Below, one piece after another: positions 1,700 to 56,885 of a stretch of 64,000 bases of DNA. A program made the translations under genes and the position numbers. How positions within the stretch are numbered: the first letter of the stretch is position 1; each line of letters opens with the position of its first letter. This DNA is from a virus. The stretch is from IMG/VR virus record IMGVR_UViG_3300044613_004618, positions 62,001-126,000 of that record; one strand, given 5' to 3'. The notes beneath the pieces were generated by a model, which saw only the letters and a program-made list of their open reading frames with translations, had not been told where the DNA came from and did no database searches.

Positions 1700-1993
1700 A
1701 TGACTACCTTTCAGCTGATCGCTTTGCTCCTGTTTGCCGGTGTGGTCCTCGCGGCCTTCGGCAAAGATATCTATGGCTGGGTCAAGACCCGGCTGCCCAA
1801 GCTGCCCCCGGTGGTGGACCCGACTTTGCCGGTCGCCCCGGACGATAACACGGGCATCCTTCTCGTCGACGAACTGCTCAACATCGCGGCGCTGCGTGAG
1901 TACTTCGATAAGGTGGGCTGCCCCGAGGGCGTCGAGGCCTGCTCGCTCCTGATGAAGATCCTGCTCGACCACAAGCATCCGCACGCGGGGTGA
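1700..1993 (+). CDS. Small membrane-anchored protein, unknown
   Basis: A 97-residue protein. The N-terminus is a hydrophobic anchor (residues about 4-20, FQLIALLLFAGVVLAAFG). A proline-rich linker follows (LPKLPPVVDPTLPVAPDD), then a helical C-terminal part with two cysteines. The ATG at 1700 is preferred because TATGGAGG lies directly upstream; an in-frame ATG at 1685 has no ribosome site. The AAAGATATCTAT copy at 1763 encodes K-D-I-Y here. The layout (anchor, Pro-rich spacer, small soluble domain) recalls spanin-type or envelope proteins, but no homologue is recognised. Confidence 0.5.
   Translation: MTTFQLIALLLFAGVVLAAFGKDIYGWVKTRLPKLPPVVDPTLPVAPDDNTGILLVDELLNIAALREYFDKVGCPEGVEACSLLMKILLDHKHPHAG
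1763..1774. repeat. GATATC palindrome, AAAGATATCTAT
   Basis: Copy of the dispersed motif; encodes K-D-I-Y in the gene at 1700. Confidence 0.55.
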
Positions 1994-1998
1994 ACACC

Positions 1999-2508
1999 AT
2001 GAAGAAGCTCATTTGGCCTGCTGGGCTCCTGCTCGCCTTTGCCCTGCTGTTCCCCAACGGCATCACGATCAAGGTACCGGATGGTCCCGTGCTGCCTGTG
2101 ACGCCGGTCACGCCCGTGGTGCCCCCTGCGCCGCCAGAGCCTGCAGCGCCGACGGACGCCAAGATCGTCGAGCTGCTCGCCAACGCGGCGCCCGCGGACA
2201 AGGGTCGTGTGCGCGGCGTCTACTCGGCGATGGTGACCGTTTTGCAGCGCGACATCAAAACGGGGCTCATCAAGACGACCGAGCAGGTGGCGCTGTGGCA
2301 GGCAAACACGCTCAAGAACGCCATTGATGATGCGATGCGCGGCAAGTACCCCGGGCTCGACGCGGCAATCGAGGCGGTGTTTGACCGGAAGCTGCGCGAA
2401 CTGGACCCCGAAGGCAAGCGCGACCCGAAAGACGTCGTTACTGTCGACAATGCCGTTCGCGCCAAGCTGATCGAGGCGTGCAACATTATCGCGGACTCGG
2501 CCCGCTAA
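1999..2508 (+). CDS. Exported or membrane-anchored protein with Pro-rich linker, unknown
   Basis: A 169-residue protein. The N-terminus (MKKLIWPAGLLLAFALLFP) is a classic signal peptide or anchor: basic, then hydrophobic. A Pro/Val-rich linker follows (VTPVTPVVPPAPPEPAAP), then a roughly 120-residue helical, charged domain. The architecture repeats that of the preceding gene, so the two may act together in the periplasm or envelope. ATG 1999 is chosen because CGGGGTG is correctly spaced before it; GTG 1990 in the same frame is an alternative. The function is not recognised. Confidence 0.5.
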   Translation: MKKLIWPAGLLLAFALLFPNGITIKVPDGPVLPVTPVTPVVPPAPPEPAAPTDAKIVELLANAAPADKGRVRGVYSAMVTVLQRDIKTGLIKTTEQVALWQANTLKNAIDDAMRGKYPGLDAAIEAVFDRKLRELDPEGKRDPKDVVTVDNAVRAKLIEACNIIADSAR

Positions 2509-2517
2509 GGGGGCTCA

Positions 2518-3060: not shown

Positions 3061-3079
3061 ACCAGTTAGTGAGGTTGCC

Positions 3080-4105: not shown

Positions 4106-4128
4106 CTCTGGCTCTGGGAGACGTTAAC

Positions 4129-4635: not shown

Positions 4636-4638
4636 CGC

Positions 4639-5462: not shown

Positions 5463-5474
5463 GGAGCGCTCCGC

Positions 5475-5825: not shown

Positions 5826-5830
5826 CGCAC

Positions 5831-6666: not shown

Positions 6667-9600
6667 ATGCCAGACTCGATCCTCTCTGGGCCGACGCAGC
6701 CGCCCCCGACGCGCGCATTTGGTGACATTAGCGCTTTGCGCAGCGGCATCTTCGATCGAGCACTGCAAAGCGCGTCTTCGCTCGAGCCAATCAAGAACGA
6801 TCTCTACACGCTCCAGCTTTCGGGCGTGCAGTACACCGGCCCGGAACGCTACACAAAGGCCGACCAGAAAAAAGCCGTCCTCACGGGCAACTCGCTTCAC
6901 CGGCGGCTCACAGGCACCTGGAATCTGATTGACAACGCCACCGGGCAGCCAATCGCGCAGCGCCCGCAGACGATCGCCCACGTGCCGTACCTTACCGACT
7001 CCGGCACGTTCGTGAACCGGGGCGTCGAGTACACCCTCGCCCACCAGATGCGCCTCAAGCCGGGCGTCTACACCCGCGAGAAGGACAACGGTGAGCTTGA
7101 GGCGCACGTCAACGTGCTGCCCGGCAAGGGTCGGATGCACCGGTACTTCCTAGACCCAAAGACCGGCGTGCTGAACATCAACATCGGCCAAGCGAAGATT
7201 CCACTCATGCCGCTGCTCAAGGCGATGGGCGCCAAAGAATCCGACATCCGCGCCGCCTGGGGCAACGAGATCACCGCCGTCAACATGGAGAAGGGCGATG
7301 CGGGAACCCTTGACAAGCTCTACCAGCGCCTTGTCTACAAGCAGGTCCCTGGACTGGACGCCGCCGCCAAGCAGAAGGCAATTGCGGACGAGTTTGCCCG
7401 CATGGAACTCGACCCCGACGTTACGCGGCGCACTCTTGGCAAGGAATACAAAAACCTTACCCCCGAGGCGATTCTCGACGTTACGAAAAAGCTCATTGCC
7501 CTCAACCGCAAAGAAGCTGATCCAGACGACCGCGACGCCATGGCGTACCAGAGCGTCGTTGGACCCGAGGATCTGATCTCCGAGCGGTTCACCAAGGACA
7601 AGCAGAGCCTGCGCAAGCTGCTCTGGAAGGCGACCGCCAGGAAGAACCTGGATCACGTCCCGACCGGCGTGTTCAACAAGGCCATTCAGGCGGCGCTGAT
7701 CGGTTCGGGCCTGGGCAGCTCGCTCGAGGAAATCAATCCGGCCGAGATCTTCGACCACCAGGGCCGCGTGACCCGCATGGGTGAGGGCGGCATCGGCTCG
7801 CTCGACGCAGTGCCCCAGGAATCGCGCAGTGTCCAGCCCAGCCACCTTGGGTTCGTGGACTTCCTGCGCACGCCGGAATCAGGCAAGGTGGGCGTCGACA
7901 TGCGCTTCGCGCGCGGCGCCATGAAGGGCGCCGACGGCAAGATCTACACGCCGGTCGTGAACATGAAGACCGGGCAGTCCGAGCTGAAAACGCCGGGCGA
8001 GCTGGCCGACATGCCGTTGGCCTTCCCCGGCGAGGACAAGGGCGACATGCCGATGGTTGCCGCGCTGGTGGGCGGCAAGATGAAGTACGTCCCGCGCGAA
8101 GAAGTCCAGTTCTCGCTGCCCCACATGGACAACACGTTCTCGGGTCTCTCGAACATGGTCCCGATGAAGTCCTACATGAAGGGCCACCGCGTGATTATGG
8201 CCAGCCGCATGTTCACCCAGGCCCTGCCACTCTCGGGTGCCGAGGCGCCGCTGGTCCAGTCCGCCGTGGCCGATAAAGACGGTGTCTCTCACGAAGACGA
8301 GATGGGAGAGCGGCTCGGCGCCGTGAAGGCGCAGTTTGCGGGCCAAGTGATTTCGGCAGAGCCGGGCATGATCGTGCTGCGCGACCGCGAGGGCAAGAAG
8401 CACGAGATCGACCTGTACAACGACATGCCATTCAACCGTAAGACGTTTTGGCACCAGACGCCGGTCGTGAAGCCGGGCGACGTAATCAAGCCCGGGCAAC
8501 TCCTGGCCCACTCAAACTTCACGAACCCGCAGGGCACTGCGGCGATGGGTAAGAACTTGCGCGTGGCCTACCTGCCGTACCAGGGTAAGAACTACGAAGA
8601 CGCCGTGGTGATCTCGGAGTCCACTGCGAAGAAGCTCACCAGTGAGCACATGTACCAGCACGAGGCCGAATGGGACGATAACAGTCACGTCGGCAAGAAA
8701 GCTTTCGTCTCGCTCTTCCCGGGCGAGTACGACAAGAAGCAGCTCGAGAACTTCGACGACAAGGGTGCCATCAAGAAGGGCACCGTGGTCAACTACGGTG
8801 ACCCGCTGATCCTCCAGGCCAAAGCCAAGGACACCGTCTACGGCAAAGTTCACCGAGGGCGGGCGGGCAACTTCACCAACGAAACGCTCACTTGGGAGCA
8901 CCACTCGCCGGGTGTAGTTACTGACGTCGAGCACACCAATAAGGGCGTGTCGGTCGTCGTGAAGAGCCAGGCCGAGATGCAGGTCGGCGACAAGCTCACC
9001 GGCCGCTACGGCGACAAGGGCGTCGTGGCGGACATCGTTCCCGATCACCGCATGCCCCAAGACAAGGAGGGCAACCCCTACGAGATCCTCGTCTCGCCGC
9101 TGGGCCTGATCTCCCGCGTGAATCCCGCGCAGGTCATCGAGGCGGCGCTGGGCAAGGTGGCTGCGAAGACCGGCCAGCCGTTCAAGCTCAAGGATTTCGA
9201 GAACGACAAGGACCTGGTGGATTTTGCCCAGAACGAGCTTGGGAAGCACGGCCTCTCCGATACTGAGGACGTCACTGATCCGGAAACCGGCCGTAAGATC
9301 AAAGGCGTGCTGACCGGTAACCGGTTCTTCATGAAGCTTCACCACACGGCCGAGGCCAAGGGCCAGGGACGCGCGATGGGTAGCTACACCGCCGAGGGCA
9401 CTCCGGCCAAGGGCGGCAGCGAGGGCGCCAAGCGCGTCGGCATGCTGGATCTCGGCGCGCTGCTCTCGCACGGCGCCGGGAAGGTCGTCCGCGACGCGAA
9501 GATGGTCCGCGGCCAGGCCAACCCCGAGTACTGGTCGCAGTTTATGTCGGGCTACACTCCGCCGCTTCCCAAGGTCCCGCACGTCTACGAGAAGTTCGTC

Positions 9601-11043
9601 AACCAGCTCAAGGGCGCCGGGATTAACACCGTGCGCACCGGCACGAAGACGCACATCACGGCGCTCACCGACAAGGACGTGGACCAGCTGGCCGGTGACC
9701 GCGAGATCACGAGCTCAGAGACCGTTGACTGGAAGGGGCGTCTCAAGCCGATCAAGGGCGGCCTGTTCGACGAGACGCTCACGGGCGGCCACGGCGGCAA
9801 CCGCTGGAGCAAGATCACGCTCCACGAGCCGATGCCCAACCCGGTCATGGAGGAGCCGATCCGCCGGGTGCTCGGACTGACCGAGAAGGATTTTCGCTCG
9901 ATCCTCGCCGGGCAGACGCAGTTTTTCGACAAGACCGGCCCGCAGGCCATTCAGGAGGCGCTGGGCCGGATTAACCTGCCCAAGGCGATCGAACAGGCCC
10001 GGTTAGATATCAAATCGGGCCGGAAGACTCTCCGCGACGCTGCAGTGCGGAAGCTGGGCTACCTCAAGAGCGCCGAGGCGCAGGGCATTCATCCCCAGGA
10101 CTGGATGATGACCAAGGTCGGCGTGCTGCCGCCCCTGTTCCGGCCGGTTTCGACGATGGGGGCCAAGAAGCTGCCGCTCGTGGCCGACGCGAACTACCTC
10201 TACAAGGAGCTGCTCGACAGCAACAACGCCCTGAAGGAAGCCTCCGGCGCCCTGAGCGAGTTCGGCGACGAGCGGCTGGGCCTGTACGACGCCATGAAGG
10301 CCGTCTCCGGCCTGGGCGACCCGCTGCAGCCCAAGAACCAGGAGCGCCGCGTGAAGGGCTTCCTCCAGCACATCTTCGGCAGCTCGCCCAAGTACGGCAC
10401 CGTCCAGCGCAAGCTCCTCAGCACGACGACCGACCTGGTCGGCCGGGCCGTGATTACGCCGAATCCCGACCTGAACATGGACGAGGTCGCCCTGCCCGAG
10501 GACAAGGCCTGGGAGGTCTACAAGCCGTTCGTGGTGCGCGGCCTGGTGCGGCGCGGCATGCCGCGGATGCAAGCGCTCGACGCCATTGAAAAGCGCGACA
10601 AGGCTGCTTTTGCCGAGCTGAATACGCAGATGTCGTCGCGGCCAATCGTAATCAACCGTGCGCCGGTGCTCCACCGATACGGTATGATGGCGTTCTATCC
10701 GAAGCTGACCAAGAACAAGGTCATGGAGGTTAACCCGGTCATTACCAAGGGCTTTGGCGCCGACTTTGACGGTGACGCGATGCAGTATCACGTCCCCAGC
10801 ACAGAAGACGCCGCCAAGGAAGCCGTGGAGAAGATGCTGCCCAGCAAAAACCTCTTCTCAACAGCCAGCTTCAAGGCGCACTACGTGCCGAACAAGGACT
10901 ACCAAACCGGCATCTACCTGGCCACGAGCCGGATCGACAAGAAACAGAAGCCCAGGGTATACAGGTCACAGCAGGACGCTATAAACGCCTATCGCCGCGG
11001 TGAGATTGACGTCGATACCCCGGTGCATATCGTCGAGAGTTAA
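6667..11043 (+). CDS. RNA polymerase beta subunit fused to the N-terminal half of beta'
   Basis: A 1458-residue catalytic subunit of a bacterial-type multisubunit RNA polymerase. Residues 1 to about 970 follow beta: a TPESGKVGVDMRF box (TPEGPNIGL region), KNLRVAYLPYQGKNYEDAVV, and GDKLTGRYGDKG (residues 774-785, holding the two active-site lysines). The beta end is GRAMGSYTAEGTP (about 901). From about residue 1000 it follows beta': KPIKGGLFDETL (1027), DWMMTKVGVLPPLFRP, NRAPVLHRYG (1330) and the metal-binding DFDGD (1366-1370; residue 1364 is Gly where most enzymes have Asn). It ends at AINAYRRGEIDVDTPVHI, about where the cyanobacterial gamma (rpoC1) subunit ends. The beta' zinc ribbon is missing and there is no cysteine anywhere. 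No strong ribosome site precedes ATG 6667, which is 5 nt after the previous stop. Confidence 0.97.
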   Translation: MPDSILSGPTQPPPTRAFGDISALRSGIFDRALQSASSLEPIKNDLYTLQLSGVQYTGPERYTKADQKKAVLTGNSLHRRLTGTWNLIDNATGQPIAQRPQTIAHVPYLTDSGTFVNRGVEYTLAHQMRLKPGVYTREKDNGELEAHVNVLPGKGRMHRYFLDPKTGVLNINIGQAKIPLMPLLKAMGAKESDIRAAWGNEITAVNMEKGDAGTLDKLYQRLVYKQVPGLDAAAKQKAIADEFARMELDPDVTRRTLGKEYKNLTPEAILDVTKKLIALNRKEADPDDRDAMAYQSVVGPEDLISERFTKDKQSLRKLLWKATARKNLDHVPTGVFNKAIQAALIGSGLGSSLEEINPAEIFDHQGRVTRMGEGGIGSLDAVPQESRSVQPSHLGFVDFLRTPESGKVGVDMRFARGAMKGADGKIYTPVVNMKTGQSELKTPGELADMPLAFPGEDKGDMPMVAALVGGKMKYVPREEVQFSLPHMDNTFSGLSNMVPMKSYMKGHRVIMASRMFTQALPLSGAEAPLVQSAVADKDGVSHEDEMGERLGAVKAQFAGQVISAEPGMIVLRDREGKKHEIDLYNDMPFNRKTFWHQTPVVKPGDVIKPGQLLAHSNFTNPQGTAAMGKNLRVAYLPYQGKNYEDAVVISESTAKKLTSEHMYQHEAEWDDNSHVGKKAFVSLFPGEYDKKQLENFDDKGAIKKGTVVNYGDPLILQAKAKDTVYGKVHRGRAGNFTNETLTWEHHSPGVVTDVEHTNKGVSVVVKSQAEMQVGDKLTGRYGDKGVVADIVPDHRMPQDKEGNPYEILVSPLGLISRVNPAQVIEAALGKVAAKTGQPFKLKDFENDKDLVDFAQNELGKHGLSDTEDVTDPETGRKIKGVLTGNRFFMKLHHTAEAKGQGRAMGSYTAEGTPAKGGSEGAKRVGMLDLGALLSHGAGKVVRDAKMVRGQANPEYWSQFMSGYTPPLPKVPHVYEKFVNQLKGAGINTVRTGTKTHITALTDKDVDQLAGDREITSSETVDWKGRLKPIKGGLFDETLTGGHGGNRWSKITLHEPMPNPVMEEPIRRVLGLTEKDFRSILAGQTQFFDKTGPQAIQEALGRINLPKAIEQARLDIKSGRKTLRDAAVRKLGYLKSAEAQGIHPQDWMMTKVGVLPPLFRPVSTMGAKKLPLVADANYLYKELLDSNNALKEASGALSEFGDERLGLYDAMKAVSGLGDPLQPKNQERRVKGFLQHIFGSSPKYGTVQRKLLSTTTDLVGRAVITPNPDLNMDEVALPEDKAWEVYKPFVVRGLVRRGMPRMQALDAIEKRDKAAFAELNTQMSSRPIVINRAPVLHRYGMMAFYPKLTKNKVMEVNPVITKGFGADFDGDAMQYHVPSTEDAAKEAVEKMLPSKNLFSTASFKAHYVPNKDYQTGIYLATSRIDKKQKPRVYRSQQDAINAYRRGEIDVDTPVHIVES
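10003..10014. repeat. GATATC palindrome, TTAGATATCAAA
   Basis: In the polymerase fusion gene, encoding L-D-I-K with the rare TTA leucine codon. Confidence 0.5.
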
Positions 11044-11786: not shown

Positions 11787-12015
11787 GCTTCAGAACAAGC
11801 TGCAGCCGACCGCGCGGCCCGCGGACAGCGTGGTCATCGAGGACGATCAGGGAAACCCGATCTTCGTGGCGATCCAGTTCGCTGAGTCGATCATGATGTC
11901 AGACATCAACGACCCGGATTTCCACTCGGTCCTTCGCCAGCTTGGAATTGACAAGACCGTCTCGATCACCGAGCTGCAGCCCAAACCCGTGCAGAATGTG
12001 ATCTGGAAGCCCTGA
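11776..12015 (+). CDS. Small hypothetical protein in the polymerase operon
   Basis: A 79-residue soluble protein starting with GTG 11776, which has GGAG 9 nt upstream and overlaps the previous gene by 11 nt. It contains a probable beta hairpin (VVIEDDQGNPIFVAIQF) and a short acidic helix. Two bases separate its stop from the start of the beta' C-terminal gene, so the three are almost certainly co-translated. The size and position would suit a small polymerase accessory subunit (an omega-like role), but I see no sequence resemblance to omega. Confidence 0.5.
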   Translation: MRVKLQNKLQPTARPADSVVIEDDQGNPIFVAIQFAESIMMSDINDPDFHSVLRQLGIDKTVSITELQPKPVQNVIWKP

Positions 12016-12017: not shown

Positions 12018-13898
12018 ATGCTCAAGACCACACTAGGCCAGCTGCTTGTCAATCAGGCGCTACCCGAGGACATGCGCAACTATGAGCGTGTCCTGACCAA
12101 GAAGGACATGGGCAAGCTGGCCACCGAACTGGCGCAGAAGCACCCGGATAAGTACCGGGACGTTATGAAGCGCTTGCACGACGCTGGCCGGGACGCGGCG
12201 TACACTACGAACGGTCTGTCGTTCGGGCTCAAAGATATCAAACCGACGCTGGCCGCCCGGGACATCCAGCAGCGTGTGCAGCGGCAGCTCCGCGGGATTC
12301 TGGCCGACCGGAAACTCGACGACAAGACGCGCTCGCTGGCGATTCTCAAGTTGGCCGCAGGCGCCCAGAGCGAGCTGATCGACAAGGTCTATGAAGAAGC
12401 GCGGGGCGTGGACAATCCCCTGGCGCACCAGGTTGCCGGGTCTGCCGTTGGCAACAAGTTCTCGTTGAACTCGCTCATCGGCGCCGACATGCAGTACGTC
12501 GACCACAAGAACGAGCCGATCCCCATTCCTGTGATGCGCGGCTACGGCCAGGGCCTGCGTCCCGTGGAATACTTTGCGGGTGCCTTCGGCACCCGCAAGG
12601 GCGTGATGGATCTGAAAACAGCCACCGCAGACGCTGGCTTTTTCGGCAAGCAGCTCGCCCAGATGACGCACCGCCTGCTTGTCACCGACGACGACGAGCG
12701 CGACGAGGAGCGCCTCGCCGCCGCGCACGACCGCGGTTATCCCACCGACGTCGACGACACCGACAACGAGGGCGCCCTGCTCGCCCGGCCGGTGGGGCCC
12801 TACAAGCGAAACACGGTCCTGACTCCCAGGATCCTGAAAGATATCAAAGAGATGGGCATCCAGGACATCCTGGTCCGTAGCCCGCTCGTGGGCGGCCCAG
12901 AAGACGGCGGCGTTTACGCCAAGGACGTCGGTTACCGCGAAAAGGGCCGCCTGCCGCCGATCGGCGACTATGTCGGCGTCGCCGCGGCCCAGGCTCTCTC
13001 TGAACCGGTAACCCAGGCGCAGATCAGCTCGAAGCACTCCGGCGGCGTCGGCGGCGCGGGCTCAATCTCAGGTTTTAAGGCGATCAACGCCCTGGTCCAG
13101 GTCCCCAAGAAATACCCCGGCGGCGCCACCCATGCGCAGCTCGACGGCCGCGTCCAGGAGATCCGCGAAGCGCCCCAGGGCGGCCATTACGTCCAGATCG
13201 GAGGCCAAGATCACTACGTCCCGGTCGACCAGGAACTCACGGTCAAGAAGGGGCAGGAGATTGAGGCCGGGGACTCCATCACGAGCGGCATGCCCAACCC
13301 ATCAGAAATTGTCCGGCACAAGGGCATCGGCGAGGGGCGGCGGTACTTTGTCAACGCCATGCGCCAGGTGCTCCAAAATTCAGGAATCTCGCCCCATCGG
13401 CGCAACATCGAGCTGCTCTCGCGGGGCTTGGTAAACCACGTCCGCATGACCGACGAGCACGGGGATTACAACCCGGACGACGTCGTTCCCTACTCGATGC
13501 TCGAACGGAGCTGGCAGCCGCGGCAGGGAAGCGTTACGGGCGCCCCCAAAAGTTTGACGGGGCATTATCTCGAGCGCCCGGTGCTTCACTATTCCATCGG
13601 CACAAAAATCGGCAAGAACGTCGCAGGCACGCTCCAAAAGTACGGTATTAACAACGTCGAAGCGCACCGCGAGCCGCCGCCGTTCCAGCCCGAGATGGTT
13701 CGCGGCATGTCGAACATTTCTAACGACCCGGACTGGATGACTCGCATGCTGGGCTCGTACCAGCAAAAGGGGCTGATGGACAGCGTGCACCGCGGCGCAG
13801 TGAGCGACACGGCCGGAAGCAGTTTTGTGCCGTCCCTGGCCCGCGGCGAGACGTTCGGTGTGGCCGGAGCCACGAGCGGATGGCGCCCACAAACGTGA
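12018..13898 (+). CDS. RNA polymerase beta' C-terminal half
   Basis: A 626-residue protein completing the beta' subunit. The N-terminus (TTLGQLLVNQALPEDMRNY) matches the beta' segment just after the rpoC1/rpoC2-type split. GTRKGVMDLKTATADAGFFG (residues about 191-210) is the bridge helix. The trigger loop runs QALSEPVTQAQISSKHSGG from residue 325: the usual histidine (H340) is kept, but the neighbouring conserved Met-Arg (E. coli 932-933) reads Ile-Ser. The remainder follows the beta' C-terminal domain up to about residue 560, then a diverged tail. There is no large insertion in the trigger loop and no cysteine, so the second beta' zinc site is also absent. It starts 2 nt after the small accessory gene. 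Confidence 0.96.
   Translation: MLKTTLGQLLVNQALPEDMRNYERVLTKKDMGKLATELAQKHPDKYRDVMKRLHDAGRDAAYTTNGLSFGLKDIKPTLAARDIQQRVQRQLRGILADRKLDDKTRSLAILKLAAGAQSELIDKVYEEARGVDNPLAHQVAGSAVGNKFSLNSLIGADMQYVDHKNEPIPIPVMRGYGQGLRPVEYFAGAFGTRKGVMDLKTATADAGFFGKQLAQMTHRLLVTDDDERDEERLAAAHDRGYPTDVDDTDNEGALLARPVGPYKRNTVLTPRILKDIKEMGIQDILVRSPLVGGPEDGGVYAKDVGYREKGRLPPIGDYVGVAAAQALSEPVTQAQISSKHSGGVGGAGSISGFKAINALVQVPKKYPGGATHAQLDGRVQEIREAPQGGHYVQIGGQDHYVPVDQELTVKKGQEIEAGDSITSGMPNPSEIVRHKGIGEGRRYFVNAMRQVLQNSGISPHRRNIELLSRGLVNHVRMTDEHGDYNPDDVVPYSMLERSWQPRQGSVTGAPKSLTGHYLERPVLHYSIGTKIGKNVAGTLQKYGINNVEAHREPPPFQPEMVRGMSNISNDPDWMTRMLGSYQQKGLMDSVHRGAVSDTAGSSFVPSLARGETFGVAGATSGWRPQT
12231..12242. repeat. GATATC palindrome, AAAGATATCAAA
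   Basis: In the beta' C-terminal gene, encoding K-D-I-K. Confidence 0.5.
12837..12848. repeat. GATATC palindrome, AAAGATATCAAA
   Basis: Second copy in the beta' C-terminal gene, same phase (K-D-I-K). Confidence 0.5.
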
Positions 13899-16364: not shown

Positions 16365-16760
16365 ATGGCAAGTACGATTTGGTCGGGCGAAACGACGTTT
16401 GAAGCTACGAGCGGCTCGCAGGCCGTGGTCCCGATTCGGGTGCCCCACCGCGGCATCATTCGCGGCTACAGTTTGACGCAAACCAGCGGCGCCAACGCCG
16501 GTGCGGCCGCGGCGCTGTATACCAGCAAGCAGGACACCGCACCCAACAGCGGGCTGCCCGCCGAGGCGTTCCACATTCTCGACATCACGCTGCCCGCCGC
16601 AGCCAAGGTTGACGACCACAGCGCCGAGGTAGCGTACATCAATCGAGACGGCACCCCTACGAACCCGCAAAGATATCTTTACCTGAAGATCACCCCGGCG
16701 GGCACGGGCGCCAAGAACTTCGTGTTCTCGGTGACGATTGAAGTCCCGAAGATGGGCTGA
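16365..16760 (+). CDS. Small beta-rich structural protein
   Basis: A 131-residue beta-rich protein (VPIRVPHRGIIRGYSLTQTS, YLYLKITPAGTGAKNFVFSV) resembling a single jelly-roll or decoration-type fold. No cysteine or membrane span. The stop overlaps the next start (TGATG). The perfect AAAGATATCTTT copy at 16669 falls here in the phase CAA-AGA-TAT-CTT and uses the rare AGA codon. A minor capsid or decoration role is an inference from size, composition and location. Confidence 0.45.
   Translation: MASTIWSGETTFEATSGSQAVVPIRVPHRGIIRGYSLTQTSGANAGAAAALYTSKQDTAPNSGLPAEAFHILDITLPAAAKVDDHSAEVAYINRDGTPTNPQRYLYLKITPAGTGAKNFVFSVTIEVPKMG
16669..16680. repeat. GATATC palindrome, perfect AAAGATATCTTT
   Basis: In the gene at 16365, read as CAA-AGA-TAT-CTT (Q-R-Y-L), a different codon phase from the K-D-I copies. 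Confidence 0.65.
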
Positions 16761-17691: not shown

Positions 17692-19026
17692 ATGCAGCCC
17701 CTGTCCAAGGCCGCCGAGGCCAAGCTGATCGGCGCCATCGAGCGCGCGGCGGCTTATGTGAACGACGGCATGGCGCCCAATGACGCCATCGTGAAGAGCG
17801 CCTCGGAATCGAACGTCCCGTCGGGGCACATCAACCTCATGGTCCACGCCTACAACACGGGCCGGACCACGAAGCAGCGCGAGCAGGGCAACGACACGCT
17901 GGAGAAGGCGGCCGACTTCCCCCTGGCCGACGCGCAGAGCGTGCTCGACACGCTCTACCCCAAGGCCGTGAAAACCTCCGCCGAGATTTCACGCGCTCAT
18001 GTGGTGTCTGCAGAGTACGCAGTCGACCCCGCTGGGATGCTGGCCCGGCGTAAGACCGCTCAGACCAAGGCGGCGGCCGCAAAGATATCTTTGCCCGAGA
18101 AGACGTGGGTTGCTCCGCCGCGTGACGAAGAGGCCGCCGCCCGCCGGGCTGCCTCTGAGAAGCGCGCCGCAGAGCTGGCCCAGGAAGAGCTGCGCCGCCA
18201 GGCCACAGTCGCCTACAGCAAGGCAGCTGCGGCGATGGAGGAGCTCCACGAGTATTTCCGTCATCCGGGCAATATGAGTTTTCAAGACGCGATGCGCGAG
18301 ACCGAGCTGCGCTATGGCGAGGACGGCGTGAGCGTGCTCAACAAGCTCGCCGCTGTCTATCCACATTTGACGAAGCAAGCCGCCACCCAGGACGTGTTTA
18401 TGGGCGAGTGCCAGCCCTGCAAGCTGGCCGCCGCCGTGCTCAACGCGCTGGAGGCCTACAACGAGGCGCAGGCGCGGGTGCCTGTGGCGAAGCAGGCTGC
18501 GTCAAAAAAAGCTGAACCGGCCGTGGTCACGGGAAGCATCCTGTACAACCCGGCCGACGAGCCGCTGACGCTCAAGAGCGCCGCGCCCACTACTGCGCCT
18601 GAGCCTTCGCTCATGGCTGCGCCCGCAGCAATTGGACAGCGTATGGTTGGGACGCTGGATTTTTTGGACCCAAGAGACCCGAAAGACTTGTCGCAGGGGG
18701 CCTACAAGGATCTGACAGACCCCGCACACGCGACGGAACTACAGAACATCCGGGCGCAGGGGGTGCTTCACGACTTGCTCCTCAATGACCCTGTAATCTC
18801 CGGCCACGATCCCCATGACGTCACCCTGGCTTTCAACGAAATCGCCGAAGTGGCGCCGCAGTCGGTGAGCTCTCCGGCGACGATGCAGGCTTTGCTGCGC
18901 AAGCGCCTCGAGGCGGGCGCGATGGCTGACTTTGATGTTGCGCAGTTGGTCAACATGGAAAAGGCCAAGGCGGAAACGGAAAAGAGTCGCCTGGACGCGC
19001 TGAAAACCGAAATGGGCCTTATCTGA
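17692..19026 (+). CDS. Ala/Lys-rich helical protein, probable internal head protein
   Basis: A 444-residue protein, mainly alpha-helical and rich in A, K and E, with a long coiled-coil-prone segment at about residues 130-200 (ASEKRAAELAQEELRRQATV). The motif hydrophobic-x-K-x-A occurs repeatedly: LSKAA (4-8), LEKAA (about 66), LTKQA. ECQPC is a single CxxC-like pair. Composition and position (upstream of the protease and scaffold genes) fit an internal core or scaffold-associated protein processed during maturation. No family is recognised. The perfect AAAGATATCTTT copy at 18081 falls in the phase AAG-ATA-TCT. Confidence 0.45.
   Translation: MQPLSKAAEAKLIGAIERAAAYVNDGMAPNDAIVKSASESNVPSGHINLMVHAYNTGRTTKQREQGNDTLEKAADFPLADAQSVLDTLYPKAVKTSAEISRAHVVSAEYAVDPAGMLARRKTAQTKAAAAKISLPEKTWVAPPRDEEAAARRAASEKRAAELAQEELRRQATVAYSKAAAAMEELHEYFRHPGNMSFQDAMRETELRYGEDGVSVLNKLAAVYPHLTKQAATQDVFMGECQPCKLAAAVLNALEAYNEAQARVPVAKQAASKKAEPAVVTGSILYNPADEPLTLKSAAPTTAPEPSLMAAPAAIGQRMVGTLDFLDPRDPKDLSQGAYKDLTDPAHATELQNIRAQGVLHDLLLNDPVISGHDPHDVTLAFNEIAEVAPQSVSSPATMQALLRKRLEAGAMADFDVAQLVNMEKAKAETEKSRLDALKTEMGLI
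18081..18092. repeat. GATATC palindrome, perfect AAAGATATCTTT
   Basis: In the gene at 17692, read as AAG-ATA-TCT-TTG (K-I-S-L), a third phase using the rare ATA codon. Flanked by C and G, giving a 14-bp palindrome. Confidence 0.65.
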
Positions 19027-27153: not shown

Positions 27154-27235
27154 AAACGCGCCAAAACGCAGGCATATTTAGTGCCCATGGTTTTGCTGCC
27201 GGGGCGCATTCCCCCGAGCTAAACGGCGCGGTAGT

Positions 27236-27261: not shown

Positions 27262-27273
27262 ATAGATATCTTT
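27262..27273. repeat. GATATC palindrome, ATAGATATCTTT (intergenic)
   Basis: The only intergenic copy, in the 185-base gap before gene 27339 and nine bases after a TTCACA-N6-TGTGAA-like element. Confidence 0.6.
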
Positions 27274-41922: not shown

Positions 41923-42729
41923 GTGATTAATCATGCACGCACGCTCTTGTTAAACGTGGCTGGCGCCACAAGCAGCCGCGAAGACACCGGCGAGGAGTAC
42001 ATCCCCGCGACGTACGCGCCGGTGCGGGAGACGTCCTACACCCTTGCCGTTCGGCGGACGCTGCTTGGGGCGGCGCCCGACCGTTTCTTTTTGAACTTCC
42101 GCGCCCGGGAGCTGATGCACCAGCTGCACGCCACCGAGCTGGCCGAGTATGTCTACGCCCTGGATCCCCGGGTAACCTACTGGCCGGAAACCTCGGCGCC
42201 GTTCTTCGCGACGGGTTCAAAGATATCTATTCAGCCGGTCGCCGTTCCGGAGACCAGCAAGCTGCTCGTCACGGGCCGCCCGACTGCCGACAACGGCCTC
42301 GGACGCTCGCTGCGCGAATACGAAGTCACGGCGGACGCCGACACGGTGACCGTCGCGACCGTGCCGCGCCGAGGCGAGATGCGGGGCGAAGAAACTGCGA
42401 GCTTTGATCCGCTGAGCGGCGCCTCGGTCGCCGTCAGGGTGCCGCGCAGCCCGCTCTCGGTTAGAGTGGTCCGGCCGGAAAGCGGATCGCGGTGGCGGTT
42501 CACCACGCTGGCGCAGCCGGAACCCGCCGTGACGACTTTGATCCCGATTCTGGAGATGCTGGGCGAGCCGGTGTTTCTCGAGCTGTTCGGCCTGGGCAAC
42601 TCCACGGAGCCGTACCGCACGTTCAAGAACCTGTGGTTCGACCACCCCGATCCCGTGTACCGCCTGGGCGGCCTGACGCTGGCACTGATCTATCGCACCC
42701 ACGACATCCGGAGCGGCGTCAATGTCTAA
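41923..42729 (+). CDS. Baseplate protein, unknown
   Basis: A 268-residue mixed alpha/beta protein (ETSYTLAVRRTLLGAAPDRF, PTADNGLGRSLREYEVTADA) starting at GTG 41923, directly after the previous stop. Its last 8 bases overlap the next gene, so the two are coupled. It lies in the hub region. AAAGATATCTAT at 42219 falls in the phase AAG-ATA-TCT. I recognise no family; a wedge or hub accessory is likely from position. Confidence 0.45.
   Translation: MINHARTLLLNVAGATSSREDTGEEYIPATYAPVRETSYTLAVRRTLLGAAPDRFFLNFRARELMHQLHATELAEYVYALDPRVTYWPETSAPFFATGSKISIQPVAVPETSKLLVTGRPTADNGLGRSLREYEVTADADTVTVATVPRRGEMRGEETASFDPLSGASVAVRVPRSPLSVRVVRPESGSRWRFTTLAQPEPAVTTLIPILEMLGEPVFLELFGLGNSTEPYRTFKNLWFDHPDPVYRLGGLTLALIYRTHDIRSGVNV
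42219..42230. repeat. GATATC palindrome, AAAGATATCTAT
   Basis: In the gene at 41923, read as AAG-ATA-TCT (K-I-S), with the rare ATA codon. Confidence 0.6.
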
Positions 42730-44393: not shown

Positions 44394-45206
44394 ATGCCCA
44401 ACGAAAAAGCACCCGGAATGCCCTCGATCCTGGACGACATTGCGCCGCCTTTCTCGGCCCCCCGCAAACCGCAGGGCGTCGGTGAGGACTTCGACGCCAC
44501 GTTCACCCAGTGGCAGAAGCAGCGCACGCCGGAGAACAACACGCGACTGCTCCAGAGCGTGCAGCCGGTGATCGACACGGCGCTGACCAGCTACGCCGGG
44601 GGCAACACGAGCCCCACGATGCGCAGCCGGGCGCGGCTCATGGCGCTCAGGGCCATGGAGAGCTTCGACCCGCAGAAGGGGAACGTCCGCACGCACCTCC
44701 TGAGCCAGCTGCAGAGCCTGCGCCGCGCGTCGGCCCAGGCGCAGAACATCATCTCGATTCCCGAGCAGGTCGGCCTGGACTACCAGCGGCTCACCGAGAG
44801 CGAGAACGAGCTGCGTGACCAGCTGGGCCGCGACCCGACCGACGACGAGCTGGCCGACCACACGATGCTCTCCCCGCGGCGCCTCCGGAAGATCCGCTCG
44901 TTCTCCCAGCCGGTGGCCGAGGGCTCGACCATCATCGAGACCGGCGATGAGCTGAACGACGGCGGCGTGGCCAGCACGATCCCCGGCAGCACCCGCGCCG
45001 CCGACGCCTGGCTCGATTTCGTGTACGACGATCTGGGCGCGACTGACAAGCTCATCATGGACATGACCCTGGGCCGGAACGGGCGGCGGCGAACCAGCAC
45101 GCAAGAGATCGCCAGGCGTCTTAATATCACGCCCGGCGCCGTGAGTCAGCGCGCCGCCAAGATTCAGGCCATGCTCGACAAGCGATACACCCAGGGAGGC
45201 TTCTGA
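44394..45206 (+). CDS. Sigma-70-family protein
   Basis: A 270-residue protein resembling a primary-type sigma factor. Residues about 50-122 match region 2: ARLMALRAMESFDPQKGNVR, then LRRASAQAQNIISIPEQ. About 124-185 matches region 3 (LGRDPTDDELADHTMLSPRR). About 205-265 matches region 4, a helix-turn-helix (STQEIARRLNITPGAVSQRA) that would read the -35 element. There is no region 1.1. It starts at ATG 44394, 4 nt after the hub gene, and its stop overlaps the next start, so it is translated with baseplate genes. With the phage polymerase at 6.7-13.9 kb, it is the obvious candidate specificity factor. It has no cysteine. The unusual site leaves open a structural role. Confidence 0.8.
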   Translation: MPNEKAPGMPSILDDIAPPFSAPRKPQGVGEDFDATFTQWQKQRTPENNTRLLQSVQPVIDTALTSYAGGNTSPTMRSRARLMALRAMESFDPQKGNVRTHLLSQLQSLRRASAQAQNIISIPEQVGLDYQRLTESENELRDQLGRDPTDDELADHTMLSPRRLRKIRSFSQPVAEGSTIIETGDELNDGGVASTIPGSTRAADAWLDFVYDDLGATDKLIMDMTLGRNGRRRTSTQEIARRLNITPGAVSQRAAKIQAMLDKRYTQGGF

Positions 45207-46181: not shown

Positions 46182-47825
46182 ATGGCTCTGGAAATTGGCA
46201 GCCTGTCGGAACTCGATAGCGGCAAGATCGACGCGATGTTCGCGACGTTTACGCAACTTATGCAGGAGCGCCACCCCGAGGTCGAGCTGACCCGCGGCGT
46301 CTTTCATGACCTGGTCGTCTATTTCAACGCGGCCCTGAACGCCTCGGTTCGGGAAAACATCGACCGGGTGCTCGCCAGCAACAGCCTGCTCTCCATCTCG
46401 ACCAACCCCGAGCTGGCCAACGACACCCTGGTCGACAAAGTCCTCGCGAACTACAACCTGACCCGCGACACGGGCAAGCAGGCCGTGGGCGAAGCGACGC
46501 TGGTGTTCAATTCGGACACCCAGACCACCATCCTGGAAAGCATCGTCTTCTCGGCCGACGGCATCCAGTTTCAGCCGACGCAGACGTTCACGGCGCTGCC
46601 CACCGGCTCGATTCCCGCCGACGACAGCCAGCGGGTCATGATCGCCGCGGGCGACGGCTCGTACGTCGTGAACATCCTGCTGCGCGCCGTTGCGGTCGGT
46701 GTTGCCGGTAACATCCGCCGGGGCACCAAGCTCGTTCCCGACAACATCATCAACAACACGGCCCAGGCGTTTGCCGCCGTGGATTTCATCAGCGGCGCCG
46801 AGCCGCTCACCAACGCCGAGTACCTCAGCAAGCTCTCGGCGGGGCTGGCTTCCAAGGCGATTGGCGGGCGGCAGAACTACATCGCTCAGATCCGCAACCA
46901 GGCGGCCTTCACGAATATCCCCCATTTGTCGATCCTGGGCTGCGGCGACGTCGAGCAGCAGCGGGACCAGCACAGCCTGTTCCCCATCTCCGGCGGCGGC
47001 AAGATTGATATCTATGCCCAGACAAACCACGACGCCCAGGAGCAGGAGCACACGCTGGAGGCCGTCTACGTCGGCCCGGGTCAGTCCGGGACGAGCTGGC
47101 AGGTCGTGCTGGACCGCAACACGGCGCCGGGCTTCTACGAGGTTGTCCGCATCGCCAAGCCGCTTGCTCCCAACGAGACCGGCTACGCGATCACACAGGA
47201 CATCCGAAACTTCGACCTCTCGGACCTCGATTTCATCCCGGACGTCGTCAGCGTGCCCGAGGCGGCCTACACCCGCTACCAGACGGCCGTGATCCGCTTC
47301 GAGGACACCGACACCCAGCCGGGCACCCTGGTCCCCCAGACGAGCCGGGCAATCTACTCGGTCACGACGACCGGCCTGCCGCTGATCGACGAGCTGCAGG
47401 ATTACATGTCCGACCGGGACGTCCGCAGCCGCGCCGCCGACGTGCTCGTGAAGGCCGCCGTCCCCTGTTTCACAAAGATATCTTTCGAGATCCGCAAGGG
47501 CGCCAACGACCCGGCGATCGACACGGCGCCGGTCAAGACCGCACTGGTGGCCGCCATTCGGGAGATTGGCTTCACCGGGCAGCTCCACGCCTCGACAATC
47601 TCCGGCGTCGTCCACCAGTTTCTCTCGGGCCGCGCGGCGCTGGGGGCGATTGACATGTTCGGCCGCATCCGCCGTCCGGACGGTTCGATCCAGTACGTTC
47701 GCGACAACACGCTCCTTCAGATCCCCAACGACCCGACGCGCCTGGTCACCGGGCGCACCACGGCGTTCCTGATCGGCGAAGAGGACATCGAGATCTCCTT
47801 TGTCGCCGCGGGCTTCACGAACTAG
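46182..47825 (+). CDS. Baseplate wedge protein, gp6/J-like
   Basis: A 547-residue protein typical of the baseplate J family. The N-terminal helical part (MFATFTQLMQERHPEVELTR) is followed by the recognisable AVAVGVAGNIRRGTKLVPDN and FISGAEPLTNAEYLSKLSAG region, where J proteins have a conserved glycine-rich beta domain. A C-terminal helical and strand part completes it. It follows the gp25-like gene. Two GATATC palindromes occur here (47004, 47474), one in the phase AAG-ATA-TCT with the rare ATA codon. The wedge role is strongly supported by order and sequence. Confidence 0.85.
   Translation: MALEIGSLSELDSGKIDAMFATFTQLMQERHPEVELTRGVFHDLVVYFNAALNASVRENIDRVLASNSLLSISTNPELANDTLVDKVLANYNLTRDTGKQAVGEATLVFNSDTQTTILESIVFSADGIQFQPTQTFTALPTGSIPADDSQRVMIAAGDGSYVVNILLRAVAVGVAGNIRRGTKLVPDNIINNTAQAFAAVDFISGAEPLTNAEYLSKLSAGLASKAIGGRQNYIAQIRNQAAFTNIPHLSILGCGDVEQQRDQHSLFPISGGGKIDIYAQTNHDAQEQEHTLEAVYVGPGQSGTSWQVVLDRNTAPGFYEVVRIAKPLAPNETGYAITQDIRNFDLSDLDFIPDVVSVPEAAYTRYQTAVIRFEDTDTQPGTLVPQTSRAIYSVTTTGLPLIDELQDYMSDRDVRSRAADVLVKAAVPCFTKISFEIRKGANDPAIDTAPVKTALVAAIREIGFTGQLHASTISGVVHQFLSGRAALGAIDMFGRIRRPDGSIQYVRDNTLLQIPNDPTRLVTGRTTAFLIGEEDIEISFVAAGFTN
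47004..47015. repeat. GATATC palindrome, ATTGATATCTAT
   Basis: In the J-like gene at 46182, encoding I-D-I-Y. Confidence 0.45.
47474..47485. repeat. GATATC palindrome, perfect AAAGATATCTTT
   Basis: In the J-like gene, read as AAG-ATA-TCT-TTC (K-I-S-F). Only 460 bases after the copy at 47004, in a different phase. Confidence 0.6.
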
Positions 47826-52959: not shown

Positions 52960-52967
52960 GGGACGCC

Positions 52968-54524
52968 ATGAGCTGCGAAGACTTCACCATTACGCCATCA
53001 GGCCGAGCGGGCATCGGCGTCGTTCAGCCCCAGAGCGGCCTTGACTATCCGCTGGTCGCCCCGTCGGATGACATTAGATATCTAATCGCCGACTTCTACC
53101 TGGCCTACGACGATCCGGGGTTTTACCAGCCCGCCACGCCGCTGCGGCAACACCCGCTTCGCATCAAGTGGCTGTACGGCGTGGGCTGCGAGGCGGCCGT
53201 CAAACCAGTCTGGGCGCCGACGCCTGTGCATGCCGCGGACATCCTGGTCGTCGACGCCAATAACGTGACCGTCTTCAATTCGACGCAGCTGGTGTCTCCC
53301 GGCGGCGACCCGAACTACTTCGAGTTTTCACAGCGCTCCTGGGGCAACGACTACGAGATTTACCAGTGGATCGGCTCCAACGTTGTCTGCCGCCTGGTCG
53401 TTTACAAGACCTGGCCGCCCTCGGCGATCGCCGCGGCCGATGCGGCGGACTTCTCAGTTGACGAACTGGTCAAGAAGAACTGGCCCAGCCACCTGTCGCC
53501 GACCAGCGCCGTGCTCGACGAGCGGGCCGTCTACAAGATGCCGCGCCGCGTGCGCTCGCTCCGTGTTGCGCCCACAGCGAGCCAGGGCGCCATTCGGCGG
53601 GCTGGGGCGGTTCTGGCCGCCGGGAACAACATGGTCATCGCCGCTGCGGCCCCTGAACTGAGCGGCCTGCGACGCAACACCGAGATCACCTTCAGCGTCG
53701 AGCCGGGCGCTGGGACAGGCAAGTACGAGGACTGCCCGGAGGATCCGACCACCCCCATCTACCAGATCAACGGCGTCACGCCGAACCAGTACGGTGACCT
53801 AGTGATCGCCGGGCCGAGCTGTCTCTTCGTGCGGCAGCCCACGGCCATCGAGGGCGACGGCGTCCGCCCGGTGCGCACCTCCGGCGCCGCGACGCTGGCG
53901 ATCAATACCGACTGTCCGCCCTGCTGCGACTGTTCAGACTACGTCGCCGTGGCGGAGTACATGACGCGCGTGGGCAATCAGTACGTGCGCATCGGCGAGC
54001 GAAGTCACGAAACCAAGCTGCTCCACGAAAGCAACATCGACCGCTGGGCGGAGCAGCGCGAGTGCCGCCTTTCGCGACCGCTGCGCGTCCTGATGACGCC
54101 GCAGAACTGTCCCTTTATGGACGTCGTGATCATGTTCTGCAACCAGTGCCAGACATGCGCCGAAGACGTCAAACTGACCGTCCAGCTCAGCAGCTTTCCG
54201 GCGGTTAGCTCCGCCGAGATTGTGTGCGGGTACACGTTCCTCTACGCGCCAGGCTACCCCGGCGTGGAGTTCACGCTCCAGGGGACGTATCCGACCTTTG
54301 AAGCCCAGCTGCCCAAAGTCGACGTGGGCAACTCAGCGTACGTCAAGTTTCGCCTGCGCTTCTTACCAAAGACGTTCCCGTACACCATTACGGCAACGTT
54401 AACTGGTACAAACGAAGATCTTCCCATCCGCGCCGGGTGCGAGGTCGATAAACCTGTTGCCAGCGCAACGACTGCGGCTTCGTTAAACTGCGACGCAAGC
54501 GGCGGCACGATCCAGAGCTGTTAA
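52968..54524 (+). CDS. Tandem fibre paralogue 2, diverged
   Basis: A 518-residue beta-rich protein. The N-terminal domain (VVQPQSGLDYPLVAPSDDIR) is a diverged version of the shared YPL domain. PIYQINGVTPNQYGDLVIAG repeats a motif found in its neighbours. A Cys-rich patch (CPPCCDCSDYV, CNQCQTCAEDV) and beta domain follow. Cysteines are probably structural. TTAGATATCTAA at 53074 is the one site with both outer arms symmetric but different from AAA/TTT, encoded in the AGA-TAT phase. A fibre role is inferred from context. Confidence 0.5.
   Translation: MSCEDFTITPSGRAGIGVVQPQSGLDYPLVAPSDDIRYLIADFYLAYDDPGFYQPATPLRQHPLRIKWLYGVGCEAAVKPVWAPTPVHAADILVVDANNVTVFNSTQLVSPGGDPNYFEFSQRSWGNDYEIYQWIGSNVVCRLVVYKTWPPSAIAAADAADFSVDELVKKNWPSHLSPTSAVLDERAVYKMPRRVRSLRVAPTASQGAIRRAGAVLAAGNNMVIAAAAPELSGLRRNTEITFSVEPGAGTGKYEDCPEDPTTPIYQINGVTPNQYGDLVIAGPSCLFVRQPTAIEGDGVRPVRTSGAATLAINTDCPPCCDCSDYVAVAEYMTRVGNQYVRIGERSHETKLLHESNIDRWAEQRECRLSRPLRVLMTPQNCPFMDVVIMFCNQCQTCAEDVKLTVQLSSFPAVSSAEIVCGYTFLYAPGYPGVEFTLQGTYPTFEAQLPKVDVGNSAYVKFRLRFLPKTFPYTITATLTGTNEDLPIRAGCEVDKPVASATTAASLNCDASGGTIQSC
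53074..53085. repeat. GATATC palindrome, TTAGATATCTAA
   Basis: In the gene at 52968, read as ATT-AGA-TAT-CTA-ATC with rare AGA and CTA codons; a 14-bp perfect palindrome with outer A and T. Confidence 0.6.
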
Positions 54525-54527
54525 ATC

Positions 54528-56099
54528 ATGGCTGTTCGTAATCAAAACTGGTACGACCTGCAGGCTACCCGGCGCTACCCGCTGGATGAGCGCAGCACCG
54601 GTCTGGACGACAACGGCCAGGTGATTCTCGACAGCATCCTGGTCGACTGCCACATCCGCTTTCCGGCGACGCTCGGCACCTACCTGTACGTGCAAGGGAT
54701 CACTGTGGCCCCCGCGCTGGTGTCGCTTGTCTTCGGCGTCGCCAGCGCGCTGGATGACTCGAGCGGCACGACCATTGCCGCCGTGACGCTGCCTCGCACA
54801 GCGCCGCAGAACGTGAATCACGAGATCACGCCGCTGCAGCCGGGCGTCGCGGGCTGGGTGGCGCTCGGTCCCGGGCTAGCCGAGGAGTTCGTGGGGCGGT
54901 ACACCGCGCCGCTGCAGACGGTCATCTCGCAGCGGTGCGCCCGACCCTACCGGCCGCTGCCTGTTCCGAGCATGGGCAAGATCGGCTTGGCTGCCAGCCT
55001 GGAGGGCATCGTCAACATCACCGCCGCGGCCCCTGTGACGGCGCGGCACGAGAAGCTGACGATCAACGACGAACAGGTCGACGCGATCGTCCTGCGCCTG
55101 GACGGCGAGCTGCCGGGCACAAACAACCCGCTGCAGTTCTTTCTTGGTCCGTGCGCTGAGCGGCCCGAGAGCGGCACCTGCCCGCGGCCACCCATCGAGA
55201 CAATTAACGGCATGAGCCCCGACTGCGACGGCAACATCACGTTCATTGTCGAGGGTTTCGACGCGCTTTCCTACAACAACTGCGGGGGCGTGGACATTAT
55301 CTCGAACACGGGCCTGGCGGAAACGTGCGACGCGCTGCGCGATCCGCGACGACGGCGGCCCGTCGACGAATGCAACAGCAGCGAAAGCCTCGATGAAGAT
55401 TACTGGTACAACCCGCTCGACCAGATTCCGCCGGACGTCGTGATCGACGAGGACCTGGAAGAGACCGCGTTCACCAACACGTGCGTCACCACGCCACTGT
55501 GCGTCGATTTCAGCGGCGGCACCGCGTCAAACTTCGTCGTGCGCGACGGTTTGTTCGTCTTTCAGTCGTTGCTTGCGCCGCCCATCTGCGGCAGCTCCGA
55601 AGAATTGTTTGACGAGCACTACGTCTACACCGCCGCTGATTTCGTGGGGCGGAACATCGCGCTGTTCCGAAACTGCTCCTCAAACTGGATCTTTAACAAA
55701 ACCATTCGAACGCAGCTTGCGTTCACCAGCAGCGGACTGCGTCGCAATGGCGGCCTGCTGCTGAACTATGTGCGCGGCAGCACGACGACATATCTGCTGG
55801 CCATGATCGACAACAATCTAAACAAGTTGCGGCTGCTGCGGTTCAACGGCACCGCGTTCATCGAGGAGTACAGCGCTAACTTTCAAACTTTTCCGGGCAC
55901 CTGGTATGAGCTTGCTGTGTCGCCAACGCAGTCAGGCAGCAACCTTGTGCTCGCCGTCACGGCCAGCGCGCCCAACGGCGCCGTGTCGCCGGTCTCCTTC
56001 ACGGTCACCCTTTCCAACTACGGAAACCCGCTCGGACTGGCAGGGCTGTACAGCGACCGCTCGTACACCTACTTCAACAAGTTTTTGATCGAGGGCTGA
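54528..56099 (+). CDS. Tandem fibre paralogue 3
   Basis: A 523-residue protein. The N-terminus NWYDLQATRRYPLDERSTGL is a clear member of the shared YPL domain family. ETINGMSPDCDGNITFIVEG repeats the INGxxPxxxG motif. The C-terminal part (LFVFQSLLAPPICGSSEELF, then WYELAVSPTQSGSNLVLAVT) looks like a lectin or laminin-G-type beta sandwich, which would suit carbohydrate binding. ATG 54528 is 3 nt after the previous stop. Confidence 0.5.
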   Translation: MAVRNQNWYDLQATRRYPLDERSTGLDDNGQVILDSILVDCHIRFPATLGTYLYVQGITVAPALVSLVFGVASALDDSSGTTIAAVTLPRTAPQNVNHEITPLQPGVAGWVALGPGLAEEFVGRYTAPLQTVISQRCARPYRPLPVPSMGKIGLAASLEGIVNITAAAPVTARHEKLTINDEQVDAIVLRLDGELPGTNNPLQFFLGPCAERPESGTCPRPPIETINGMSPDCDGNITFIVEGFDALSYNNCGGVDIISNTGLAETCDALRDPRRRRPVDECNSSESLDEDYWYNPLDQIPPDVVIDEDLEETAFTNTCVTTPLCVDFSGGTASNFVVRDGLFVFQSLLAPPICGSSEELFDEHYVYTAADFVGRNIALFRNCSSNWIFNKTIRTQLAFTSSGLRRNGGLLLNYVRGSTTTYLLAMIDNNLNKLRLLRFNGTAFIEEYSANFQTFPGTWYELAVSPTQSGSNLVLAVTASAPNGAVSPVSFTVTLSNYGNPLGLAGLYSDRSYTYFNKFLIEG

Positions 56100-56102
56100 G
56101 CG

Positions 56103-56885
56103 ATGTCCGACGCGCGTATTCTTTATCCGCAGTTTCGCGACGAGCAAGCTGACTCGCGCTACCCCTTCGCGGACCGGGCGACGCTTGCATCGTCAACGGC
56201 GGGCCTGGAGATTGGCCGGGACACCTTCATCGACGCCAGCATCTACACGATCAATGGCGACCGGCAGGCTTACATCTCGGCCATCGTCGTGACGCCACAG
56301 TTGATCACAATCTACCTCGGTGACGTGGGCGACCCGCGCCGCGCCAGCGCGGAGTTTAACCCGTTGGCCGCCCCGGCCGACGGCGTGCTCAACGTGTTTG
56401 ATATCTATGGCCGCCCCGCGGGCATGCTCCTGTCGACGCCGCTGGCTCTGGCTCGATTTTCCGGCTGGCCCACAGGGACGCACACGTTTCTACCAGCGGC
56501 CGCGGAATTCGTCTCTTCCGTGGTCATTCCCGCGCGCGAACCGGGCGTCCGCGGCCTGGTGGCCGACGACGCGGCGCTCCTCACGGGAGACGTCTGGATC
56601 GTAGGTGGCCGCGGCGTCGTTGTGCGAAAAGAAGACGAGGAAATCATTCGCGTCGACATCATCGGCGAACCGCTGTTCAACCGCTATCTCTGCGACCCTG
56701 TGCAGCGTTTTGCGCCCAAGACGTTCCTGCAATCGATCACCGTAAACCGGGTCACGTGCGGCCCCAACGAATACGGCGGCTTTAACATCACCGCGACCGA
56801 TCACGGCGCAAGCGATTCCGTCCTGCGAATCTACCCGCAAGACGGAAACATTAAAATAGACACGATCGGCCGAAAGGTGGTGTGA
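56103..56885 (+). CDS. Tandem fibre paralogue 4
   Basis: A 260-residue beta-rich protein. N-terminus ILYPQFRDEQADSRYPFADR belongs to the shared domain; the middle is a beta domain (VTPQLITIYLGDVGDPRRAS) and the C-terminus carries the diverged CGPNEYGGFNITATDHGASD motif. TTTGATATCTAT at 56397 encodes F-D-I-Y. It lacks the extra C-terminal sandwich of its neighbour. GAGGG lies about 6 nt upstream. Confidence 0.5.
   Translation: MSDARILYPQFRDEQADSRYPFADRATLASSTAGLEIGRDTFIDASIYTINGDRQAYISAIVVTPQLITIYLGDVGDPRRASAEFNPLAAPADGVLNVFDIYGRPAGMLLSTPLALARFSGWPTGTHTFLPAAAEFVSSVVIPAREPGVRGLVADDAALLTGDVWIVGGRGVVVRKEDEEIIRVDIIGEPLFNRYLCDPVQRFAPKTFLQSITVNRVTCGPNEYGGFNITATDHGASDSVLRIYPQDGNIKIDTIGRKVV
56397..56408. 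repeat. GATATC palindrome, TTTGATATCTAT
   Basis: In the gene at 56103, encoding F-D-I-Y. Confidence 0.45.

Follow-up and report, generated by a model that had tools for sequence, protein, structure and literature searches.

Genes and palindromic sites in the window

The window is 64,000 bases long and runs from base 62001 to base 126000 of the virus record G000, a partial contig of 127,388 bases. The record belongs to a group of phages of about 200 kb that encode a multisubunit RNA polymerase, and almost all of its genes are located on one strand. A gene for a 1458-residue protein resembling RNA polymerase beta plus the N-terminal part of beta-prime is positioned at 6667..11043 (+ strand), and its counterpart in the relative G024 contains the Pfam Rpb2/Rpb1 domains. 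A C-terminal beta-prime-like gene follows at 12018..13898 (+ strand; RNA_pol_Rpb1_5, E 1.7e-22). Beta-prime is split across the polymerase genes, which are separated by two small genes (11058-12015). A sigma-70-family gene is found at 44418..45206 (+ strand), with a Sigma70_r3 domain at record positions 106787-106912, corresponding to window positions 44787-44912. When the 1458-residue polymerase was used as the query, 31 related loci were retrieved, many of them on contigs of 195-205 kb. G024 has 203,910 bases and a 73-base terminal repeat, as expected of a circularly closed assembly; all relatives used for comparison are uncultured assemblies. Genes were called with a purpose-written codon-score script instead of a standard gene finder.

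The window contains 17 copies of GATATC, 15 with three A/T bases on both sides (WWWGATATCWWW), four of these being the perfect AAAGATATCTTT; an exact recount agreed with the preliminary description in numbers and places. These 12-bp palindromes carry no strand, and the relatives that keep a site at the same place are given in parentheses. AAAGATATCTAT is present inside genes at 1763..1774 (G001, G011, G024, and G012), 28273..28284 (G001 and G024), and 42219..42230 (G011). The RNA polymerase genes harbor TTAGATATCAAA at 10003..10014 in the beta-like gene (G001 and G011) and AAAGATATCAAA twice in the beta-prime-like gene, at 12231..12242 (G001, G011, G002, and G012) and 12837..12848 (G011 and G024). 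The perfect copies are located inside genes at 16669..16680 (G001, G011, and G024) and 18081..18092 (G001, G011, G024, and G012), both out of the GAT-ATC codon phase, and at 28954..28965 and 47474..47485 (both G001 and G011). Other intragenic sites are TTTGATATCTTT at 37188..37199 (G001 and G011), ATTGATATCTAT at 47004..47015, where the counterpart place in G024 reads ATAGATATCTAT, TTAGATATCTAA at 53074..53085 (out of the GAT-ATC phase; G001, G011, and G024), and TTTGATATCTAT at 56397..56408 (G011). One site, ATAGATATCTTT at 27262..27273 with GATATC at 27265, is intergenic as previously described, and its place is kept in G001, G011, and G024 with differing flanks.

Enrichment of the sites over codon-preserving shuffles

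The number of sites was compared with a null model in which synonymous codons were shuffled within genes and intergenic stretches were resampled by dinucleotide. In the window, 15 sites were observed versus a mean of 0.13 and a maximum of 2 in 500 shuffles, and four perfect AAAGATATCTTT copies versus a mean of 0.02. The bare GATATC hexamer was without clear excess (17 versus a shuffle mean of 11.6 and a maximum of 24), indicating that the excess comes from the A/T bases to either side of it. The whole record contains 40 WWWGATATCWWW sites, with a mean of 0.22 and a maximum of 2 in 200 shuffles and not a single copy of the reversed-pattern control. All other palindromic hexamers in the record have at most 2 doubly AT-flanked copies each, and AAAGATATCTTT occurs 13 times versus 0.008 copies expected from the product of the half-site frequencies. 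An excess over the shuffles was present in nine genomes. An origin by chance, codon usage, or protein-driven selection was ruled out by these synonymous shuffles, and the original observation of a set of sites far from chance was right and even stronger than claimed.

The coding sites in the window use all three codon phases (9/2/3 in the new gene calls), as the preliminary description had read them. The rare codons named there were confirmed for AGA, ATA, and TTA with 0.6-0.9 per 1000 codons in the window, and less so for CTA with 1.9 per 1000. Several sites overlap a stop codon, either TAG in ATAGATATC or TGA in TTGATATC. In the record, 15 of the 40 sites are intergenic although the noncoding share is only 12%, so the preference for intergenic positions exceeds that visible in the window alone.

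Conservation, spacing, and orientation

Conservation of the sites at the DNA level was found in the relatives, as the claim of selection at this level implied. All 12 bases of the coding sites were identical in 12 of 16 cases between G000 and G001, 12 of 14 between G000 and G011, and 13 of 17 between G001 and G011 (75-86%), compared to 7-14% for flanking windows and 12-25% for AT-rich coding windows as controls in these genomes of shared ancestry. Between G000 and G024, 5 of 19 coding sites were fully identical versus 6% of the flanks and 14% of the AT-rich controls, a weaker signal, which indicates that the places of the sites turn over. Few places are common across the lineages, and this ruled out a regulation of fixed target genes. 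In genomes whose noncoding share is 9-14%, between 8 of 30 and 18 of 45 sites are intergenic, an enrichment of 2- to 4-fold in the group of the window and in the G002 lineage. The sites at L005:12754 and L005:13943, which precede two neighboring genes, have an extended flank in common, CGAATAGATATCTAACC.

The sites occur singly and not in clusters, on average 3-5 kb apart. Using a null that keeps the coding and intergenic site classes and yields a coefficient of variation of about 1.0, the coefficient was 0.58-0.66 in G024, G001, G011, and G002 and 0.77 in G000. The P values for even spacing were 0.02 (G000), 0 of 4000 (G024 and G001), 0.0003 (G011), and 0.0015 (G002); these genomes share ancestry and are hence not independent, but the sites of G002 are mostly at other places, which makes it a nearly independent case. 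The sister clade (G013, G025, G018, and G030) displayed no evenness, with coefficients of about 0.9-1.1. There was no clear bias in the orientation of the sites relative to transcription: the orientation was balanced in the sister clade (125 plus versus 111 minus) and 25 versus 12 in G002 when an asymmetric matrix was used.

Drift of the consensus between lineages

The genomes G024, G001, and G011 carry the same word as the window. The consensus is AWAGATATCTWT in this group, CATTGATATCAATG in G002, and a looser TTTWGATAWCAAAA in the sister clade. In G002, the perfect AAAGATATCTTT is absent, and ATTGATATCAAT occurs nine times and TTTGATATCAAA four times. The sister clade had at first been regarded as being without the motif due to its background-like counts. 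This was overturned by the shuffles, in which GATATC reached about 2-fold and WWWGATATCWWW 11- to 24-fold the mean, and by the fit of a looser matrix, which converged on TTTWGATAWCAAAA with 52-63 sites per genome at a false rate of 10%. Every lineage examined contains 40-62 sites per 119-205 kb, or about 45-60 per 200 kb; the count is conserved while the consensus differs, so that the number of sites remains stable while the word drifts.

The drift concerns the flanks, which shift symmetrically and carry strong, lineage-specific information at positions -4 to -6 from the dyad. It can be followed at L007:8577 (record position 48577) and its counterparts, where a conserved noncoding stretch encloses a site that reads AAAGATATCTTT in G000 and TTTGATATCAAA in G002, the flanks being swapped from AAA/TTT to TTT/AAA in the latter. 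An Rfam search with this stretch gave no match. The sites are real, selected, and tuned to the lineage. The distant relative G029 (54% identity in the polymerase) contained no site of the kind found in the window. It has a dispersed word of its own, approximately TTTCAATCCGCGGGTATTGAA, with roughly ten copies in 229 kb (L127-L138).

A directional promoter-like element

A directional element composed of RCTAAAT and GGCATAT at a fixed distance was present in 60 copies in ten genomes, with 2 of them on the reverse strand. One member of this class, ACTAAAAACGCGCCAAAACGCAGGCATAT at 27149..27177 (+ strand), precedes the site at 27262 by about 115 bases. Additional promoter-like elements were noticed at L005:7827, 15814, and 16655, and at similar places in relatives. 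A palindrome was found no more than 45 bp upstream of 13 of the 60 elements, compared to 0.82 expected. This proximity suggests that the putative binder of the palindromes touches promoters; most palindromes are without a promoter-like neighbor.

Search for a DNA-binding protein

A core protein, that of alignment A6, is a candidate for the cognate DNA-binding protein. It is composed of an acidic N terminus, a helix-turn-helix (HTH), an H1-like basic linker rich in Lys, Ala, and Pro, and a C-terminal helical hairpin. AlphaFold was confident only in the hairpin and in a three-helix domain spanning residues 110-157 (about 90), and the fold matches were weak, with Fur- and ArgR-like proteins among the best. 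No significant relative was found in Pfam, PHROG, or PDB (best Pfam match HTH_33 at E 0.022), nor a close relative of the HTH in the phages and plasmids searched. The A6 protein was found in 10 of the 22 records searched, including every near-complete record with sites except for contig breaks at its locus, as shown for G018. No match was obtained in G029, which is without the sites, in several partial contigs, and in G004 (194 kb). The gene is also missing from the 127-kb record behind the window, probably because this record is incomplete. The recognition helix occurs as TAPQVSV, TPPQVSV, or SPAQVSQ and splits into the same three classes as the consensus of the sites; as these classes follow phylogeny as well, the agreement amounts to a correlation only. 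On this basis, the A6 protein may be the binder, with a chance that we put clearly below one half, and other unrecognized proteins could serve as well.

The HTH protein at 16760, proposed in the preliminary description, had no Pfam match and a poor structural model, and its sequence identity between lineages tracks the genome average, which argues neither for nor against it as the binder. Gene 31 of G024, an HTH protein with an AT-hook, was rejected: it is only 25-28% identical between genomes with the same sites, and its relatives lack the AT-hook. A search by presence and absence of genes was dropped because it presumed a binder restricted to one clade. With positive controls, six records yielded no match in profile searches for ParB_N (0 of 6), ParA (AAA_31), and tyrosine integrases, and broad Pfam scans covering most proteins of G024 revealed no serine integrase and no Noc, SlmA, or MatP.

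Possible function of the sites

To understand the biological meaning of these sites, their number, symmetry, and distribution can be considered together. The palindromes are probably the scattered targets of a dimeric protein that is encoded by the phage and has an architectural and regulatory role all over the genome. Such a protein would bind the palindromes as a symmetric dimer and, with one site per approximately 3-5 kb, would act globally; it may shape or tether the phage DNA and regulate transcription where a site abuts a promoter. Protein binding, the phage origin of the binder, and its double role are what we infer from the sequences. G002 and G024 share the avoidance of GCCGGC, a hint of similar hosts, and differ in the flanks of their sites, which argues for a binder encoded by the phage rather than by the host. 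A bolder version is speculative and rather doubtful: these phages, if virulent, may make their own chromatin, with an H1-tailed HTH protein on about 50 evenly spaced palindromes that would fold the genome and time transcription, protein and sites co-evolving their specificity. The roles listed in the preliminary description thus fared differently. Operator- or stoperator-like and nucleoid-organizing sites fit best, while a packaging signal is unlikely given about 50 evenly spread sites, a ParB-type partition function is not backed by any ParB_N or ParA match, and a modification target is disfavored for the reasons given below.

Alternatively, the sites may be roadblocks like those of Rep in Cluster A mycobacteriophages, with a repressor on promoter-proximal operators and dispersed sites that halts elongation throughout the genome. 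The similar copy number, the lineage-specific consensus, the presence of some sites at promoters, and the location of nearly all genes on one strand agree with this possibility. Stoperators are asymmetric and oriented, however, and the sites here are palindromic or, in the sister clade, equally frequent in both orientations. Moreover, the profile searches and Pfam scans described above brought up no integrase, ParA, or ParB and hence no hint of lysogeny that such a repressor would maintain, and we regard roadblocks as rather unlikely. It is less probable still that the sites imitate those of a nucleoid or regulatory protein of the host recruited by the phage. This would agree with the fact that the binder was not identified in the phage and with the differing consensus of groups that possibly have different hosts, as judged from restriction-site avoidance: GCCGGC, with about 59 copies expected in the window alone (Markov estimate), is completely missing from the whole records of the G000, G001, G009, G011, G012, and G024 group and of G002, while CCWGG is down to 0-4 copies in the sister clade (G013, G018, G025, and G030) and occurs hundreds of times in the others (83 in the shortest contig). 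This pattern suggests different host restriction systems, but G002 and G024 have the GCCGGC avoidance in common and nevertheless differ in their consensus.

GATATC is the restriction target of EcoRV. A function as a target of DNA modification or restriction, or as a word protected from it, might come to mind in genomes that totally avoid other restriction words. This is very improbable: selection favors the word, in a context of 12-14 bp with strong flank information and with flanks that drift between lineages, unlike a methylase target, and in the window, GATATC that lacks the AT flanks shows hardly any excess. Restriction-modification targets have a short core and are indifferent to their flanks, unlike the sites here with their informative flanks. 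Hardly any weight, the least of all, is left for the sites being promoters of the phage RNA polymerase. Some intergenic sites are indeed 20-90 bp before genes, but most sites are inside genes, and the word is palindromic while phage RNA polymerase promoters are directional and upstream of genes; a separate directional promoter-like element exists.

Comparison with known systems

By analogy, the sites may work like dispersed operators or like the sites of chromosome organizers. Cluster A mycobacteriophages are temperate and have genomes of about 50 kb. Those such as L5 and Bxb1 have 20-30 dispersed repressor sites per genome, a few of them at promoters, and their stoperator consensus drifts between subclusters together with the repressor (PMC6550527); these stoperators are asymmetric, and most of them follow the direction of transcription (PMC6550527, PMC9283540). 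The dispersed short conserved word is a common feature, here with 40-62 copies per 119-205 kb, but the sites of the present phages are palindromic in two lineages and unoriented in the sister clade, and the phages are RNA-polymerase-encoding, roughly 200 kb in size, and without an integrase being found.

The KorB operators are about a dozen sites dispersed over 60 kb. On plasmid RK2, they are short, AT-flanked palindromes with long-range action over the replicon (PMC11790492). Form and dispersal along the replicon are alike, but KorB is a CTP clamp of the ParB family, and searches of these phages for a ParB_N domain gave no match. Since the sites are not oriented as stoperators are and ParB, as in KorB networks, was not found, they were assigned to neither group. 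The sites of MatP (matS), Noc, and SlmA are dispersed palindromes bound by a sequence-specific chromosome organizer (PMC4726725, PMC3116907) and are similarly found inside and between genes, but these sites have other words and a far lower density and belong to bacterial chromosomes. The cultured Salmonella phage Arash, whose multisubunit RNA polymerase is related (about 33% identity, with 98% of the query covered), has only one WWWGATATCWWW in its 181 kb, and a scan revealed no set of palindromes comparable to the present one. No description of such sites for such viruses was found in the literature searched.

Few phages are known with dispersed sites that are selected at the DNA level inside and between genes. 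The same number of sites with a word that changes in concert would offer a natural series for a regulator and dozens of sites shifting their specificity, and would suggest that large phages are selected for the architecture of their genomes.

Other features of the genomes

A 308-residue protein encoded at window positions 24170-25096 is 90-99% identical among phages with 40-85% identity in other genes and is, by size and place, probably the major capsid protein. A phage-encoded tmRNA with the tag GTFNSAPALAA is located at L005:11531-11876, and a tRNA-Met at L006:10222-10294 directly follows one of the palindromic sites.
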